Program-made: the position numbers and the translations under genes
Part shown: positions 9,065 to 22,322 of the stretch, in pieces
How positions within the stretch are numbered: position 1 is the first letter of the stretch
Layout of the letters: each line of letters starts with the position of its first letter
Notes under the pieces: generated by a model
Told to the model about the DNA's origin: nothing
The model's input: only the letters and a program-made list of their open reading frames with translations
The model's database searches: none
Origin: Bradyrhizobium zhengyangense
GTDB lineage: Bacteria; Pseudomonadota; Alphaproteobacteria; Rhizobiales; Xanthobacteraceae
Assembly (NCBI RefSeq): GCF_022012435.1
Contig: NZ_JAKLUA010000004.1
Location: forward strand, 496,001-560,000
Reading direction: 5' to 3'
DNA: 64,000 nt

Positions 9065-9832
9065 ATGGCATTGCTCGCAAACCACATCGCTGTCGTCACG
9101 GGCGCCGGTTCCGGCATCGGCCGGGCGATCGCCGCCGGCTATGCCCGTGAGGGCGCGCAAGTGGTGCTGCTCGACGTCAACGCCGCCACGGTCGCGGAGG
9201 CCGCCGAAGAGATCAGCAAGGCCGGCGGTAAGGCTACGAGCTTTGCGCTCGACGTGACCAGGCGTGACGACTGCTTCGCCCTGGCCAAGCAGGTCGCCGA
9301 AAAGGTCGGTCAGGTCTCGATCCTCGTCAACAATGCCGGCATCACCCGCCGCAACGCCATCACTGCGGAGACCGAGGCGGTGGCGAAGGACTGGAACGAC
9401 ATCATCTCACTCAACCTCAACGGCGTCTTCAACACGACGCAGGCTTTCCTCGCGCCGCTGCGTGCAGCCAAGGGCCGCATCGTCAATATCGCGTCGATCC
9501 AGTCTTTCGTGCATCTGCGCACGCCGAGCTCGGCCGCCTACACCACTTCGAAACACGGCGTGCTCGGCTTCACCAAGGCGCTCGCGGTCGAGCTCGGCAA
9601 GGAAGGCGTGCGCGTCAACGCGATCGGGCCAGGCTTCATCGAGACCAACATCAATGCCCATGTACGCGCCACCAATCCTGCTTTGGTGCAGGCCTTCGTC
9701 GACCACACCCCGCTCGCACGTACCGGTAAGCCGGAGGACATCGTCGGCCCCGCGATCTTCCTTGCGTCAGACCTGTCGTCGTTCGTCACAGGATCGATCG
9801 TCATGGTGGACGGCGGATATCGCACGGTGTGA
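9065..9832 (+). CDS. Short-chain dehydrogenase/reductase, gluconate-5-dehydrogenase/FabG-like
   Basis: 255 aa. TGAGSGIG (about residues 13-20), LVNNAGITRR, the Ser-Tyr-Lys catalytic set (IASIQSF, AAYTTSKHG) and the C-terminal VDGGY are all intact. Related to sugar-acid dehydrogenases and 3-oxoacyl-ACP reductases; the exact substrate is undetermined. GGGAGGAAATTGCC ribosome site leads into ATG 9065. Monocistronic, with a 9-bp inverted repeat (9844-9852 and 9875-9883) after the stop. Confidence 0.85.
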   Translation: MALLANHIAVVTGAGSGIGRAIAAGYAREGAQVVLLDVNAATVAEAAEEISKAGGKATSFALDVTRRDDCFALAKQVAEKVGQVSILVNNAGITRRNAITAETEAVAKDWNDIISLNLNGVFNTTQAFLAPLRAAKGRIVNIASIQSFVHLRTPSSAAYTTSKHGVLGFTKALAVELGKEGVRVNAIGPGFIETNINAHVRATNPALVQAFVDHTPLARTGKPEDIVGPAIFLASDLSSFVTGSIVMVDGGYRTV

Positions 9833-9919
9833 GTGAGATCGGTCCGCGTTGCTATGCATCTCGTGCCAATCGCGGCAACGCGGCGGCATTCCCAAGGTCA
9901 TCTCGTGCGATAGATCGAA

Positions 9920-9937
9920 ATTAACCTTTGATTAACC
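9920..9937. promoter_or_regulatory. CtrA-type box upstream of FlbD-like gene
   Basis: ATTAACCTTTGATTAACC contains TTAA-N7-TTAAC, the full consensus of the cell-cycle regulator CtrA in alphaproteobacteria. It is 107 nt before the start of the FlbD-like gene at 10044. Binding is inferred from the match only. Confidence 0.6.
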
Positions 9938-9948
9938 AAACCCGCCCA

Positions 9949-9962
9949 CCGTAGATCTACGG
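9949..9962. promoter_or_regulatory. Perfect 14-bp palindrome CCGTAGATCTACGG
   Basis: Uninterrupted palindrome 12 bases after the CtrA-type box and 82 before the FlbD-like start. Could be an operator, possibly for the Fis-type protein itself; no direct evidence. Confidence 0.4.
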
Positions 9963-10043
9963 CTTAGGATATACGGCTTGGGGGTCGTTTGTTCTCGATC
10001 CGCTTCCAACGATGGAGGCGGGCGTTGATCGGGGAGTGTGTTG

Positions 10044-10292
10044 ATGACCACTGTTCATGTCGCGGCGCCCGAGCAGGGCGCGCAATTCCTTGCACCCAAT
10101 GAGATCGTTCCACTGTTGATCGGCGCGACCGTCGGCGAGGTCGAGCGCGAGCTCGTGCTGCAGACGCTCGCGCGCTGCGACGGCAACCGCACGCGTGCCT
10201 CGCGTGTGCTCGGCCTGTCGGTGCGCACGCTGCGCAACAAAATCAGGATTTATGCCGCCTCCGGCATCGAGGTGCCGGCCTATCACGACTAG
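10044..10292 (+). CDS. FlbD-like Fis-type DNA-binding protein (HTH domain only)
   Basis: 82 aa. Residues about 25-80 carry GATVGEVERELVLQTLARC, GNRTRASRVLGLSVRTLRNK and IRIYAASGIEVP, the C-terminal Fis-type helix-turn-helix of the flagellar regulator FlbD. The receiver and AAA+ domains of FlbD are absent, so this is an orphan DNA-binding module unable to activate sigma-54 by itself. GGGGAG site 7 nt before ATG; an in-frame GTG lies two codons earlier. A CtrA-type box lies upstream. Its TAG stop overlaps the stop of the convergent 10289 gene in a shared CTAG. Confidence 0.8.
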   Translation: MTTVHVAAPEQGAQFLAPNEIVPLLIGATVGEVERELVLQTLARCDGNRTRASRVLGLSVRTLRNKIRIYAASGIEVPAYHD

Positions 10293-10540
10293 CGCGTGAC
10301 GGCGCCGGAGAGCGTCCGGTACAGCTTCGTGCCGACAAGCAGTGACACCGTGATGATCGCGACCCAGGCCGCGGTCAACGCGATGGCGCGCAGCGCGAAG
10401 GCCGTCAGTATAGCCCATGACGGCTGCAGCTCCTCGGCATAGCCAACCGGGACGACGTCCGGCACGAGCAGATGGGCAAGGCCGAGCGTCGCTGCGAGAA
10501 CGACCGCGGACAGGCAGAAGACTTTCCAGGCTGCACGCAT
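10289..10540 (-). CDS. Small inner-membrane protein, two TM segments
   Basis: 83 aa. Two hydrophobic segments (about residues 7-28 and 45-70) linked by a periplasmic or cytoplasmic loop PDVVPVGYAEELQPSW. No family recognised. ATG at 10540 has a GAGGAACG site; the longer upstream frame is antisense to the collagen-like gene start and is rejected. A perfect FixK/FNR-type box is centred 70 nt upstream, suggesting low-oxygen control. Confidence 0.7.
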   Translation of the reverse strand: MRAAWKVFCLSAVVLAATLGLAHLLVPDVVPVGYAEELQPSWAILTAFALRAIALTAAWVAIITVSLLVGTKLYRTLSGAVTR

Positions 10541-10603
10541 CGGTCGTTCCTCGCAAGGATTGTGGCCGCGCGTCATCAATGACACGGCGCCCTGCGGCGC
10601 CGA

Positions 10604-10617
10604 TTGATGTTGATCAA
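10604..10617. promoter_or_regulatory. FixK/FNR-type box between divergent genes
   Basis: TTGATGTTGATCAA is an exact TTGAT-N4-ATCAA palindrome, the consensus for FNR and FixK2 proteins. It lies 63 nt from the start of the membrane protein (10540, minus) and 79 nt from the collagen-like gene (10697, plus). If the box is centred at -41.5, the leaders would be about 29 and 44 nt. Which gene it controls is not decided; the -10 match is weak on both sides. Confidence 0.6.
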
Positions 10618-10696
10618 GCCGCCACGACGCCCGAGCGGAATTGCTGCTGTCGTCAAACGCCGCTAAGTAGCAAGCTTGCCAAGAGGGAGTAGCGGC

Positions 10697-11215
10697 GTGG
10701 CAGACGATCAGGGACGGCCGGGACCACAGGGTCCGCGCGGGCGGCAGGGCGAACCGGGGCGACCGGGGCCGCAGGGTCATCCGGGCAAGCGAGGCCCGGA
10801 CGGTGCACGCGGCAAGCCGGGACCACAGGGTAAACCGGGACCGGCCGGAAAGGCAGGCGCACAGGGCAAGGCTGGTTTGCCGGGCAAGCCGGGCGAAGCC
10901 GGTCCGCGGGGCGCCGCAGGACCGCAGGGCTCCTCAGGACCTCAGGGCCCAGCCGGCCCCCAGGGCCCGCGCGGCGAGCCAGGCCCTCCCGGTCAATTAC
11001 CGTCCATCGAACAAGTGCTGCCGTGGCTAGATCAGCTCTTCGACGCCTGGGATGAACGTCGCCGCCAGCGCGAGCAGGAGGCCGCCGAGCACGCCGCGCT
11101 CGAAGCTGCAGTGCACGAGGCTGAAGATGCGTCCTCGGATGACGAGAGCGACGAGGGCGAAGGCGACGAGCCCAAGAGAAAGAAGAAAAAGAAGAAGCAC
11201 GGCCACAAGGACTAG
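10697..11215 (+). CDS. Collagen-like Gly-X-Y repeat protein
   Basis: 172 aa from GTG at 10697, chosen because AAGAGGGAG lies 7 nt before it. Residues 6-101 are 32 uninterrupted Gly-X-Y triplets rich in Pro, Gln, Lys and Arg, able to form a collagen triple helix. A helical segment ([20 protein letters not shown], about 103-122) probably trimerises or anchors; then an acidic stretch ([13 protein letters not shown]) and a basic tail with six consecutive Lys. There is no signal peptide or membrane segment, so the protein may be cytoplasmic or exported by another route. Function unknown. Confidence 0.85.
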
Positions 11216-11224
11216 CGGGCGCAG

Positions 11225-11440
11225 CTACTGCGCCTGGTCGTCCCGCCGCGGCACCATGCCCATGCGCTCGAACTGCCAGCGCATGGCGCGGTACCAGAGA
11301 TAGCCGACTGCCGCGCCGCAAACCGCCAGGATCACCACGTTTGCGCTTGAGAACGATCCGCTCCACCACATCATCCACGCGGTCCACAACAGCGTGAATA
11401 TGATGGCACCTGCTTTCAGCGGAAGAAGGGGACGGCTCAT
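11225..11440 (-). CDS. Small inner-membrane protein, two TM segments
   Basis: 71 aa with hydrophobic segments at about 8-28 (AGAIIFTLLWTAWMMWWSG) and 33-50 (NVVILAVCGAAVGYLWY) and a basic C-terminal tail. No family recognised. GGAGCAGGAACC precedes the ATG at 11440. Convergent with the collagen-like gene, 9 nt between stops. Confidence 0.65.
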   Translation of the reverse strand: MSRPLLPLKAGAIIFTLLWTAWMMWWSGSFSSANVVILAVCGAAVGYLWYRAMRWQFERMGMVPRRDDQAQ

Positions 11441-11498
11441 GGTTCCTGCTCCGGGTTGTCAGAACCCCGGCAGGCATCATCGCGCGTCACGGCCAACG

Positions 11499-11522
11499 CC
11501 ACCGTGAGGCAGGTCACGGTGG
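11499..11522 (-). terminator. Possible terminator hairpin after the DUF2277 gene
   Basis: 8-bp perfect arms CCACCGTG/CACGGTGG separated by 8 bases, 16 nt past the stop of the 11538 gene on the minus strand. No U-run follows, so an intrinsic terminator is uncertain. Confidence 0.3.
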
Positions 11523-11537
11523 GACCTTGCGGAACCT

Positions 11538-11804
11538 CTAACCGAAGCGCAGCCGCGAACGCTCCTTGGCTTTCTCCGCCTCGACCTCTCGGTCGCGCGC
11601 CGGTGCGTGGGTGTGCAGCGAGGTCAGCAGTCTTCGCGCAGCATCCGAAACCTCCGCCACCGCGCGGTCGAAGGCCGCCTCGTTGGCCTGTGACGGCTTG
11701 TTGAAGCCGGAGAGCTTTCGAACGAACTGGAGTGCACTGGCGTGGATCTCCTCCTCTGTCGCCGGCGGCTCGAAATTGAACAGCGTCCTGATGTTGCGGC
11801 ACAT
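11538..11804 (-). CDS. DUF2277 domain protein
   Basis: 88 aa. MCRNIRTLFNFEPPATEEEI at the N-terminus is the signature of DUF2277, small proteins of unknown function common in bacteria and actinomycetes, with AALQFVRKLSGF-like and SDAARRLLTSL helices. Cytoplasmic, predicted helical. ATG at 11804 follows GGGAGAAACGGC. 98 nt upstream of the 11225 gene on the same strand. Confidence 0.85.
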   Translation of the reverse strand: MCRNIRTLFNFEPPATEEEIHASALQFVRKLSGFNKPSQANEAAFDRAVAEVSDAARRLLTSLHTHAPARDREVEAEKAKERSRLRFG

Positions 11805-11930
11805 GCCGTTTCTCCCGGTGGTTTCCCCTTAAGACGATCGGCTGAGCCGAAATCCTACATCGTTCCGCCCTCTTCTGGTAAGGTCCACGCCAACGCGGCC
11901 GCCGGATATGAGCCGCCTGGGGAGAGGAAC

Positions 11931-12992
11931 ATGAAAGCATATTTTGCAGCGCTGTCGGCCATTCTGCTGTCCGTTTCCGCATCGGCATACGCGGCGGACT
12001 ACCCGGCGCCGAAGCAGGGCGATTGGGTCGCGCGGGATTTCAAATTCCACACCGGCGAGGTCATGCCGGAACTGAAGCTGCATTACACCACGGTCGGCGA
12101 ACCGACTGGACAGCCGGTGCTGGTGCTGCACGGCACCGGCGGCTCGGGCGCAAGCATGCTGACGCCAGCCTTCGCCGGCGAATTGTTCGGCGCCGGCCAA
12201 CCACTCGACGCGTCCAAATATTACATCATCCTCCCAGATGCGATCGGCCACGGTAAATCGTCGAAGCCCTCCGATGGCATGAAGACGAGCTTTCCGAAAT
12301 ACGATTACGACGACATGGTCGAGGCGCAGCATCGCCTCGTGACTGAAGGCCTCGGCGTCAAGCACCTGCGGCTCGTGATCGGCAATTCCATGGGCGGCAT
12401 GCAAACTTGGCTGTGGGGCGAGAAGTATCCGAAGGACATGGACGCGCTGGTACCGATGGCCTCGCAACCGACCGAGATGGCGTCACGCAACTGGATGCTG
12501 CGACGGATCATGCTCGACACCATCAGGAACGATCCCGACTACAACGGCGGCAACTACACCAGCCAGCCACGGATGATGAAGTACGCGATCACCGCCTATG
12601 GCATTGCCAGCATCGGCGGCACGCTCGCCTATCAGCAACAAGCGCCGACCGCGGCGAAGGCCGACAAGATCGTCGACGAGCGACTGGCGACGCCGATTAC
12701 TGCTGACGCGAACGACTACGTCTATCAATGGGACTCCTCACATGACTACAACGCTGCCGAGAAGCTCGAGGCTATCGAGGCCTCGCTGCTGCTGATCAAT
12801 TCCGCCGACGACGAGCGCAATCCGCCCGAGACAGGGATCACGGATGCCGCGATGAAGCGGGTCAAGAACGGCAAGCTGTACCTCATCCCCGCGAGCACCG
12901 AGACGCGCGGCCACGGCACCACCGGCAACGCAAAATTCTACAGCGAGCAGGTCCGACAATTGCTGCAAACCGCACCGCAGCGGACGATGTAG
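11931..12992 (+). CDS. Exported alpha/beta hydrolase, homoserine O-acetyltransferase-like
   Basis: 353 aa. A signal peptide (to about ASAYA, residue 21) precedes an alpha/beta-hydrolase fold. LVLHGTGG supplies the oxyanion region, GNSMGGMQ the nucleophile elbow Ser, and the C-terminal DDERNPPE and ETRGHGTTG the Asp and His. The overall layout resembles MetX-type acetyltransferases, but a periplasmic location argues for a hydrolase with unknown substrate. GGGGAGAGGAAC leads to ATG 11931. A strong terminator follows at 13028. Confidence 0.8.
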   Translation: MKAYFAALSAILLSVSASAYAADYPAPKQGDWVARDFKFHTGEVMPELKLHYTTVGEPTGQPVLVLHGTGGSGASMLTPAFAGELFGAGQPLDASKYYIILPDAIGHGKSSKPSDGMKTSFPKYDYDDMVEAQHRLVTEGLGVKHLRLVIGNSMGGMQTWLWGEKYPKDMDALVPMASQPTEMASRNWMLRRIMLDTIRNDPDYNGGNYTSQPRMMKYAITAYGIASIGGTLAYQQQAPTAAKADKIVDERLATPITADANDYVYQWDSSHDYNAAEKLEAIEASLLLINSADDERNPPETGITDAAMKRVKNGKLYLIPASTETRGHGTTGNAKFYSEQVRQLLQTAPQRTM

Positions 12993-21161: not shown

Positions 21162-22322
21162 TTAGCGCACGGTGACAGGCGCGGGCAGCGGCGGCACGAC
21201 CGTCGGCTGCGTGCCGGGGACCGGGCCAGCCTGGGCAGCCATCGGAGCCGGACCGGGCGCGGCCGACGCGGTTGCCTGCGGCGGATTGCCCGGCATCACC
21301 ACCACGCGGGTGCCGACCTTGGCGCGGTCGAAGAGGTCAGACACGTCCTCGTTCAGCATGCCGATGCAGCCGGAGGAGACGAACTTGCCGATCGTCGAGG
21401 GCTGGTTGGTGCCGTGGATGCGGTACACGGTCGAGCCGAGATACATCGCGCGGGCACCGAGCGGATTGCCTTCGCCGCCGGCCATGAAGCGCGGCAGATA
21501 GGGCTGGCGCTCGATCATTTCCGCCGGCGGATGCCAATCCGGCCACTCGGCCTTGCGGGTGATCTTCTGCACGCCGGTCCAGGTGAAGCCGTCGCGGCCG
21601 ACGCGAACGCCGTAGCGGATCGCCCGGCCATTGCCGAGGACGTAATAGAGATAGGTGTTCGGCGTATCGACCACGATAGTGCCGGCCGGCTCCTTGGTCT
21701 GGAACGCGACCTCCTGGCGGCGCAGGTTCGGCGCCAGCTGCGCCGGGGCCGCGTCAGGCTGCTCCTCGGGCGGCAGCGCGGCGACCGACATCGGCCGGCC
21801 ATCGGCGCCCTGCTGCGGGACCGCGCCAGTCGCGGCGGGGCCACTGACGGCTTCCGGCGGACGCATGCCATCGCTGGCGGGCGCCTGGCCCGGGCGATCA
21901 GCGTAGATCACTGCCGGCGGAGCGGCGGGACGGCCGTAGCGGGGGTCGTCGGGCGACATCACCGGCCCCTGCGGCGGAGCGGCGGAATAAACCGGCGGAG
22001 CACCGGCCGGACGGCCGTAACGCGGATCATCCGGCGACATCACCGGGCCCTGCGGCGGGGCTGCAGAGTAGACCGGCGGGCCTGCAGGGCGAGCGTAGCG
22101 CGGATCGTCAGCCGGACCGGGCGGCGGCAGCGAGGCCTGCGGCATCGCGTCGTCGTCTTCCAGAGAGTCGAAATTCGGGGTGCGGTCACCGGGCCGGTAT
22201 TCGGCCGGGGCGCCGTAGCTTGGCGCCTGCTGAACCGGATAGCTCTGGGCCTGTGCAAGCGAGGTTCCCGCCGCAGCGACTGTTGCGGCAGCGCATATCG
22301 TCAGAAAATGTTTGATCATCAT
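21162..22322 (-). CDS. L,D-transpeptidase (ErfK/YbiS/YcfS family) with proline-rich repeat linker
   Basis: 386 aa. Signal peptide MMIKHFLTICAAATVAAAG, then a long Pro/Ala-rich linker with imperfect tandem repeats of DDPRYGRPAG and PPVYSAAPPQGPVMSP (about residues 65-135), then the YkuD catalytic domain (about 210-345). The catalytic motif is HGTNQPSTIGKFVSSGCIGM with Cys319. It makes 3-3 peptidoglycan cross-links or attaches proteins to the wall. A second Pro-rich tail follows. Two adjacent ATGs (22322, 22319). Confidence 0.9.
   Translation of the reverse strand: MMIKHFLTICAAATVAAAGTSLAQAQSYPVQQAPSYGAPAEYRPGDRTPNFDSLEDDDAMPQASLPPPGPADDPRYARPAGPPVYSAAPPQGPVMSPDDPRYGRPAGAPPVYSAAPPQGPVMSPDDPRYGRPAAPPAVIYADRPGQAPASDGMRPPEAVSGPAATGAVPQQGADGRPMSVAALPPEEQPDAAPAQLAPNLRRQEVAFQTKEPAGTIVVDTPNTYLYYVLGNGRAIRYGVRVGRDGFTWTGVQKITRKAEWPDWHPPAEMIERQPYLPRFMAGGEGNPLGARAMYLGSTVYRIHGTNQPSTIGKFVSSGCIGMLNEDVSDLFDRAKVGTRVVVMPGNPPQATASAAPGPAPMAAQAGPVPGTQPTVVPPLPAPVTVR
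21928..22112. repeat. Coding tandem repeat in the L,D-transpeptidase linker
   Basis: Two nearly identical units of about 80 bp plus a partial third encode alternating DDPRYGRPAG and PPVYSAAPPQGPVMSP. The DNA units differ mainly at third positions, so the expansion is not very recent. Copy number may vary between strains. Confidence 0.7.

Follow-up and report, generated by a model that had tools for sequence, protein, structure and literature searches.

The collagen-like gene at 10697-11215 of the window (the whole 64-kb stretch of Bradyrhizobium zhengyangense DNA that was analysed) was a real, selected gene, as judged by Gly conservation and dN/dS in its relatives, and it represented a single-copy family found in most Bradyrhizobium and some relatives. 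By sequence its product belonged to the collagen repeat family. The C-terminal domain had no convincing match in the libraries searched; a ladder of five lysines spaced two triplets apart and a tail conforming to the PASK definition are new in this analysis. From these features we infer, tentatively, that the protein may be a homotrimeric cytoplasmic rod binding polyphosphate (polyP) or another polyanion, with trimer, location and ligand all predicted. The gene and its parts were as follows.

10697-11215, + strand: collagen-like gene, 172 aa in translation, GTG start and TAG stop.
10683-10689, + strand: Shine-Dalgarno-like GAGGGAG, 7 nt before the GTG, read from the sequence.
10664-10666, + strand: in-frame TAA, eleven codons before the GTG, barring an upstream signal peptide.
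10712-10999, + strand: the collagen rod, residues 6-101, made of 32 Gly-X-Y triplets and carrying a net charge of +10 per chain.
10814-10888, + strand: lysine ladder, Lys 40, 46, 52, 58 and 64, each at X in alternate triplets.
10997-11140, + strand: C-terminal helix region, residues 101-148, proposed trimerisation helix (AlphaFold2 monomer model and conservation).
11126-11212, + strand: tail of PASK type by residue composition (residues 144-172), with an acidic tract and a run of Lys.

The coordinates and frame given by the first-pass annotation were correct on checking. In order along the protein came 32 triplets (6-101), a helix (104-148 in the monomer model), an acidic region and a run of six Lys. 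Purine-rich stretches lay at the Shine-Dalgarno place in the relatives' upstream regions as printed, and the assigned start codon was GTG in 111/117 and TTG in 6/117 relatives. These 117 distinct relatives were a chosen set rather than a random sample, with most of them from the genus of the window. Left out of it were six loci missed by the motif search (L072, L075, L083, L103, L127 and L133), seven duplicates, L001 and L002 (the window again) and a shortened locus, L073; L003, likewise from the window's genome, was kept as the reference row. A 275-aa antisense ORF (10653-11480), opposite the collagen run, was set aside as a gene; its open frame was explained by the dN/dS and Gly conservation of the sense frame. 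An Rfam scan of 9800-12000 gave no match. The collagen-like gene stood alone in the window, since the nearest gene on each side was on the opposite strand.

All 32 triplets were perfect in translation, as had been claimed for residues 6-101. The protein matched Pfam Collagen (PF01391) with an E-value of 2.6e-17 and 62.8 bits against a cut-off of 27.2, and this was the sole site of Collagen matches in the 8.8-Mb genome, with two overlapping matches there. Through the collagen run, 31 PDB sequences were matched. The rod (residues 6-101, pI 11.8) was composed of G32, P23, Q9, A9, R8, K6, E3, L2, S2, H1 and D1. The description of it as rich in Lys and Gln with few Gly-Pro-Pro therefore held (GPP in 1/32 triplets), with Arg (8) more frequent than Lys (6). 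Six Lys codons in a row occurred at two places genome-wide, the collagen-like gene being one of them; the other was at G000:C12:343831-343848 (-). The Pfam score and this rarity in the genome excluded a chance origin of the triplets and the Lys run.

Strong selection on the triple-helix coding was seen in near-invariant Gly columns and in low dN/dS. Mean column entropy over the 117 relatives was 0.04 bits at Gly, compared with 0.96 bits at X and 1.15 bits at Y, and dN/dS over the triplets was 0.04-0.12 in nine pairwise comparisons. In six of these pairs every aligned Gly was conserved, and in the other three 31/32 were; 8-16 Gly codons per comparison had changed silently. In these alignments selection thus acts on the triple-helix rule itself, keeping Gly at every third residue. 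A survey of repeat number, which had been suggested as a check, found it to vary: the longest uninterrupted run was 21-44 triplets, most commonly 31 (30/117 relatives). One relative, L016, carried a single Gly-to-Ser change mid-triplets that interrupted an otherwise perfect run.

The helix claimed to follow the triplets was present in an AlphaFold2 monomer model as one helix, 104-148, with block-mean pLDDT of 93, 95, 91 and 83 for residues 101-140; mean pLDDT of the whole model was 61.7 and pTM 0.29. L101, P102, P109 and W110 were invariant in the 117 relatives, and P102, P109, W110 and A117 in alignment A1 (34 rows). Hydrophobic residues recurred at 104, 107, 108, 110, 111, 114, 115 and 118 (117 rows), a pattern of two to three heptad turns with a wide face; positions 112 and 113 were variable. 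dN/dS over the helix was 0.02-0.09 (nine pairs). This C-terminal helix, with its wide hydrophobic face at residues 104-118, is proposed to serve as the trimerisation helix that collagens need. A PDB search with the C-terminal domain profile found no sequence at E-values up to 1. Weak matches touching the C-terminal part were to a major capsid protein (NF033847, E 0.038, NCBIfam) and to a DnaD-like helicase loader (phrog_7498, E 0.021, PHROGs).

The best PHROGs match of the whole protein was a tail fibre (phrog_6320, E 1.8e-25), as would be expected of a domesticated phage tail fibre, and the collagen run was common to the phage and prophage tail-fibre collagens of phrog_6320 and phrog_1806. 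This match covered the triplets only (residues 4-100), however, and the C-terminal domain had no match in phage and plasmid records, nor the whole protein in viral contigs. In contrast to phage tail collagens, there was no virion context and no common non-collagen domain, and each genome held one copy. Chromosomal neighbours also recurred in most loci: by tblastn in the fetched flanks, DUF2277 (11538-11804, -) was found in at least 99/118 loci, a Fis/FlbD-type helix-turn-helix protein (10038-10292) in at least 96/118 and a convergent small protein (11225-11440) in at least 87/118, the counts being lower bounds because the flanks were 1.5-3 kb. A phage or plasmid origin was accordingly not supported, and domestication of a tail fibre is extremely improbable.

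At several loci from more distant genera (e.g. L044-L046 and L049-L052), none of six neighbours was found in the 1.5-kb flanks although the collagen-like gene was present. The Fis-type neighbour (10038-10292, +) was a stand-alone 84-aa DNA-binding domain without the ATPase part; NCBIfam matched it best to FlbD, at the C-terminal end of that protein (E 1.6e-19). Elsewhere in the window, a tandem repeat at 21923-22079 had a period of 81 (and 40), with 84% matches for the longer unit.

Searches with the C-terminal domain (profile A1) found it in 153/195 genomes of the genus, in 67/296 genomes of the family sample (11/47 genera) and in 10/397 genomes of the order sample, all 10 of them in the window's family. 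Every genome with a match had exactly one copy. Absence from 42/195 congeners indicated that the domain was dispensable and not essential to the genus. Named holders were Bradyrhizobium (12/16 loci) and, with one locus each, Tardiphaga, Afipia, Nitrobacter and Pseudorhodoplanes, the last of which the motif search did not recover. The protein of one congener, L022, was identical to that in a named Bradyrhizobium record, L060. Rereading of five of the six loci missed by the motif search (all but L072) showed that L075, L127 and L133 encoded the protein with a variant LP-x motif. At L083 (G104) a stop directly followed the triplets, with one TAG inside the match and the domain outside the triplet frame, and at L103 (G046) the triplet run was not found on rereading. 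At the C-terminal domain, G042 and G073 had open frames of only 101 and 82 aa. These four broken or short frames could be pseudogenes, assembly errors or real losses.

No signal peptide was recognised from hydropathy and the number of open upstream codons, in agreement with the first-pass annotation. The window gene had no room for one because of the in-frame TAA (10664-10666), and its sole alternative start, TTG at 10676, would add seven residues at most. Among the 117 relatives, at most 12 codons were open upstream in 85 and at most 20 in 102; more than 20 were open in 15/117, so an earlier start is possible in those. No start was hydrophobic: counted from the assigned start, the first 40 aa of the 117 relatives gave Kyte-Doolittle means over 12 residues of at most 0.53. 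None of the 117 had a membrane-like segment, the highest 19-residue mean anywhere being 0.86.

Prokaryotic collagens were placed at the cell wall or outer membrane in the available part of a review (PMC8968730), which would fit export of the protein without an N-terminal signal, to act as a rod at the surface or in the matrix as other bacterial collagens do; a basic rod could also hold acidic exopolysaccharide. Such export seems unlikely, given that the 117 relatives had neither a hydrophobic N-terminus nor a membrane-like segment and that a Pfam scan of six window neighbours revealed no secretion component (and no phage gene). The same part of the review mentioned neither Bradyrhizobium nor Rhodopseudomonas (PMC8968730), and no paper on this protein was among the open-literature matches listed. 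The first-pass remark that a cytoplasmic triple helix would be unusual thus stood in relation to the wall and outer-membrane collagens in that part of the review (PMC8968730) and to the matches listed, and within that compass only.

The protein resembled the collagen-like adhesins Scl1/Scl2 (SclA/SclB) of streptococci and Lcl of Legionella in its Gly-X-Y run, few GPP and charged triplets. NCBIfam matches were to SclB (E 4.4e-13), Lcl (1.2e-10) and SclA (6.8e-10), covering the triplets alone. Scores were far below the curated cut-offs (48.9/325, 40.6/500 and 39.1/400 bits, respectively). Unlike Scl and Lcl, it had no signal peptide or N-terminal V domain, and its proposed trimerising part was C-terminal. 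Since the scores were far below the cut-offs and the signal was missing, it was not classed as an Scl/Lcl adhesin. A collagen domain of Rhodopseudomonas palustris, a related bacterium, reportedly formed a stable triple helix as a recombinant product in E. coli (Xu et al. 2010, Biomacromolecules).

Ladder positions 40, 46, 52, 58 and 64 were Lys in 116, 111, 111, 99 and 105 of the 117 relatives (542 Lys and 4 Arg among 570 ungapped cells), and 84/117 had a ladder run of five or more. When the window's own triplets were shuffled, a run of five Lys at this spacing arose in 134 of 200,000 shuffles. Rod positions 14, 16, 38, 71 and 92 were opposite to the ladder, with 501 Arg and 2 Lys of 567, and positions 22 and 31 were mixed Arg/Lys among relatives. 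The G+C content of the window was 64%.

Charge was unevenly distributed along the chain: the rod carried +10, the helix -7 and residues 144-172 -1, and the whole protein, including the first five residues, had 27 basic and 27 acidic residues and a net charge of 0. Over the 117 relatives the mean charge was +8.3 for the collagen part, -5.9 for the rest and +2.4 for the whole protein. Such segregation, and the 27/27 balance in the window, would suit a self-assembling filament, with basic rods and acidic helices of adjoining trimers stacking into a cytoplasmic fibre or mesh. Two observations make this assembly quite improbable: across relatives, the charge of the collagen part was not offset by that of the remainder (r = +0.19), and the triplet number ranged from 21 to 44, a variation that a regular stagger would resist.

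An acidic tract followed by six consecutive Lys, as earlier described, was borne out at the C-terminal end, which read K-R-K6-H-G-H-K-D (K160, R161, then Lys 162-167). The PASK motif is defined, in the available part of the source, as 20 residues with at least 75% D/E/S/K and one Lys (PMC12345225). With 16/20 D/E/S/K and Lys, the window tail conformed to it, as did those of 94/117 relatives (at least 15/20); 23/117 missed the threshold. None of 58 other window ORFs reached it, the highest count being 12, in a control set that included spurious ORFs and from which the collagen gene had dropped out, its antisense ORF being longer. At least five consecutive Lys were present in 100/117 relatives. 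Tail columns 161-164 held 440 Lys and 13 Arg in 468 cells, and columns 160 and 166 tolerated Arg (39 and 25 of 117). The tail was fast-evolving (dN/dS 0.12-1.87, nine pairs), which indicated that its composition was kept more than its order.

The suggestion that the basic end could bind polyphosphate fitted a formal PASK motif, a kind reported, in the part of the paper available, to bind polyP (PMC12345225). According to the same part, PASK proteins are rare in bacteria, polyP binding to PASK is suggested by recent work to be non-covalent and through Lys, and a Lys-to-Arg change abolished the polyP shift in the cases tested (PMC12345225). Longer Lys runs favour non-covalent binding in the accessible text of a second report, where polyP was bound by two P. 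aeruginosa proteins containing nine Lys per 20 residues (four consecutive) but not by two containing five and seven (PMC12077175); the window tail had eight Lys in 20 residues, six of them consecutive. From what was available of these sources, the formal PASK motif at the C-terminus of E. coli YihI was not its polyP-binding site (PMC12345225) and the Lys-rich InfC and FadB did not bind polyP (PMC12345225, PMC12077175), so the motif is a weak predictor. The acidic, Ser- and Lys-rich tail was like those of PASK-type polyP binders (yeast Nsr1 and Top1; E. coli YihI, PASK-like), with the difference that this putative binder was attached to a collagen rod. The acidic tract could also simply neutralise the Lys run.

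Polyphosphate was taken as the first candidate ligand because Lys rather than Arg was kept in the ladder and the tail core. Against it, the preference for Lys was not general (columns 160 and 166; positions 22 and 31). Nucleic-acid binding usually tolerates an exchange between Lys and Arg at the basic positions. The same cytoplasmic trimer could have DNA or RNA as its ligand, as a nucleoid- or ribosome-associated rod; the basic rod (+10 per chain, pI 11.8), the poly-Lys tail and the very weak PHROGs resemblance of the C-terminal part to the DnaD-like helicase loader (E 0.021) point that way. We consider a nucleic-acid ligand rather unlikely: the ladder and tail columns 161-164 hardly swapped Lys and Arg at 64% G+C, although columns 160 and 166 did, and no DNA- or RNA-binding domain was matched in Pfam or NCBIfam.

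The rise of a collagen triple helix is 0.286 nm per residue. For the preferred polyP-binding trimer, we propose that three identical chains would associate through the C-terminal helix with its wide hydrophobic face (104-118), and that this association would nucleate a triple helix that, over 96 residues, spans about 27 nm. The product would be a strongly basic rod whose middle third has a lysine in every other triplet, with three acidic/poly-Lys tails bundled at one end. Tails and ladder would bind a polyanion, most likely polyphosphate, and the rod would serve as a rigid cytoplasmic cross-linker or tether, e.g. at polyphosphate granules or the nucleoid. That a once-per-genome cytoplasmic collagen with a 27-nm basic rod, a period-six ladder and three PASK tails acts as a polyP scaffold is, on this reading of the sequence, conceivable but doubtful.

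Upstream of the collagen-like gene, three further features were located.

10638-10671, + strand: conserved upstream block, TTGCTG-N17-TAAGTA here, recognised by eye in the upstream regions as printed.
10604-10617, no strand assigned: perfect FNR/FixK2-type box, TTGATGTTGATCAA, between divergent genes and 93 bp upstream of the collagen-like gene.
10289-10540, - strand: divergent small membrane-protein gene, 83 aa, from an inner ATG of an ORF.

The block read, by eye, TTGAAG-N18-TACAAG in distant relatives, and AATTG or ATTTG lay no more than 75 nt from the start in 112/117. The block is probably the core promoter of the collagen-like gene. A sigma-70 promoter, as initially read by eye, was reduced to a conserved upstream block: a consensus promoter scan gave no call at 10638-10671, and the -10 of the window was weak.

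The box was the only perfect FNR-type box in the 64-kb window; the genome had 33 TTGATN4ATCAA sites in all, this one included. It fitted the FixK2 consensus TTG(A/C)-N6-(T/G)CAA as given in the available part of PMC6710368. Control of the collagen-like gene by FixK2, switching it on in microoxia or nodules, was a first strong lead, later demoted by contingency and tree. The perfect box lay 93 bp upstream, and TTGA(T/C)N4ATCAA was found within 180 bp upstream in 48/117 relatives, 11 of them without a detected divergent gene; the remaining 69/117 collagen loci had no box. The divergent gene was detected in 40/117 loci, 37 of them with the box. Both were thus present in 37 loci, neither in 66, the box only in 11 and the gene only in 3 (Fisher p 3.6e-17, overstated because the loci are related). 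On the tree, which was a quick one with 29/114 inner branches starred, box and divergent gene never changed oppositely among independent pairs with support. There were 8 or 9 such pairs, of which 5.5 and 5.9 on average changed in the same direction and the rest showed no difference (sign test, median p 0.06 and 0.03). Near-miss boxes were seen where the divergent gene was missing (e.g. L009, L012, L014, L026 and L031); they look like erosion, loss and gain not being separable by the tree.

Because box and divergent gene co-occurred across loci and tree, the box most likely serves the divergent membrane-protein gene, which is a candidate low-oxygen gene. In Pfam, that 83-aa protein gave an ABA4-like match that scored 17.8 bits, under the cut-off of 27. 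By analogy with nnrS and nnrR, whose divergent promoters have one FixK2 box in common in the part of the source available (PMC6710368), the box may serve both genes. Since it tracked the divergent gene and was absent from 69/117 collagen loci, low-oxygen control of the collagen-like gene itself has only a small probability.

If the collagen-like protein does form a cytoplasmic triple helix, collagen would be used inside a bacterium as an intracellular organiser, as opposed to a surface or extracellular fibre, and the family would offer a simple, deletable model in soil and nodule bacteria with existing genetics. It would also allow a test of whether PASK-type tails bind polyP in bacteria that conserve the motif widely. 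Even if the protein proves to be exported, the extent of the family is now described (domain order, genera and single copy), together with a conserved C-terminal domain that has no convincing match in the libraries searched.
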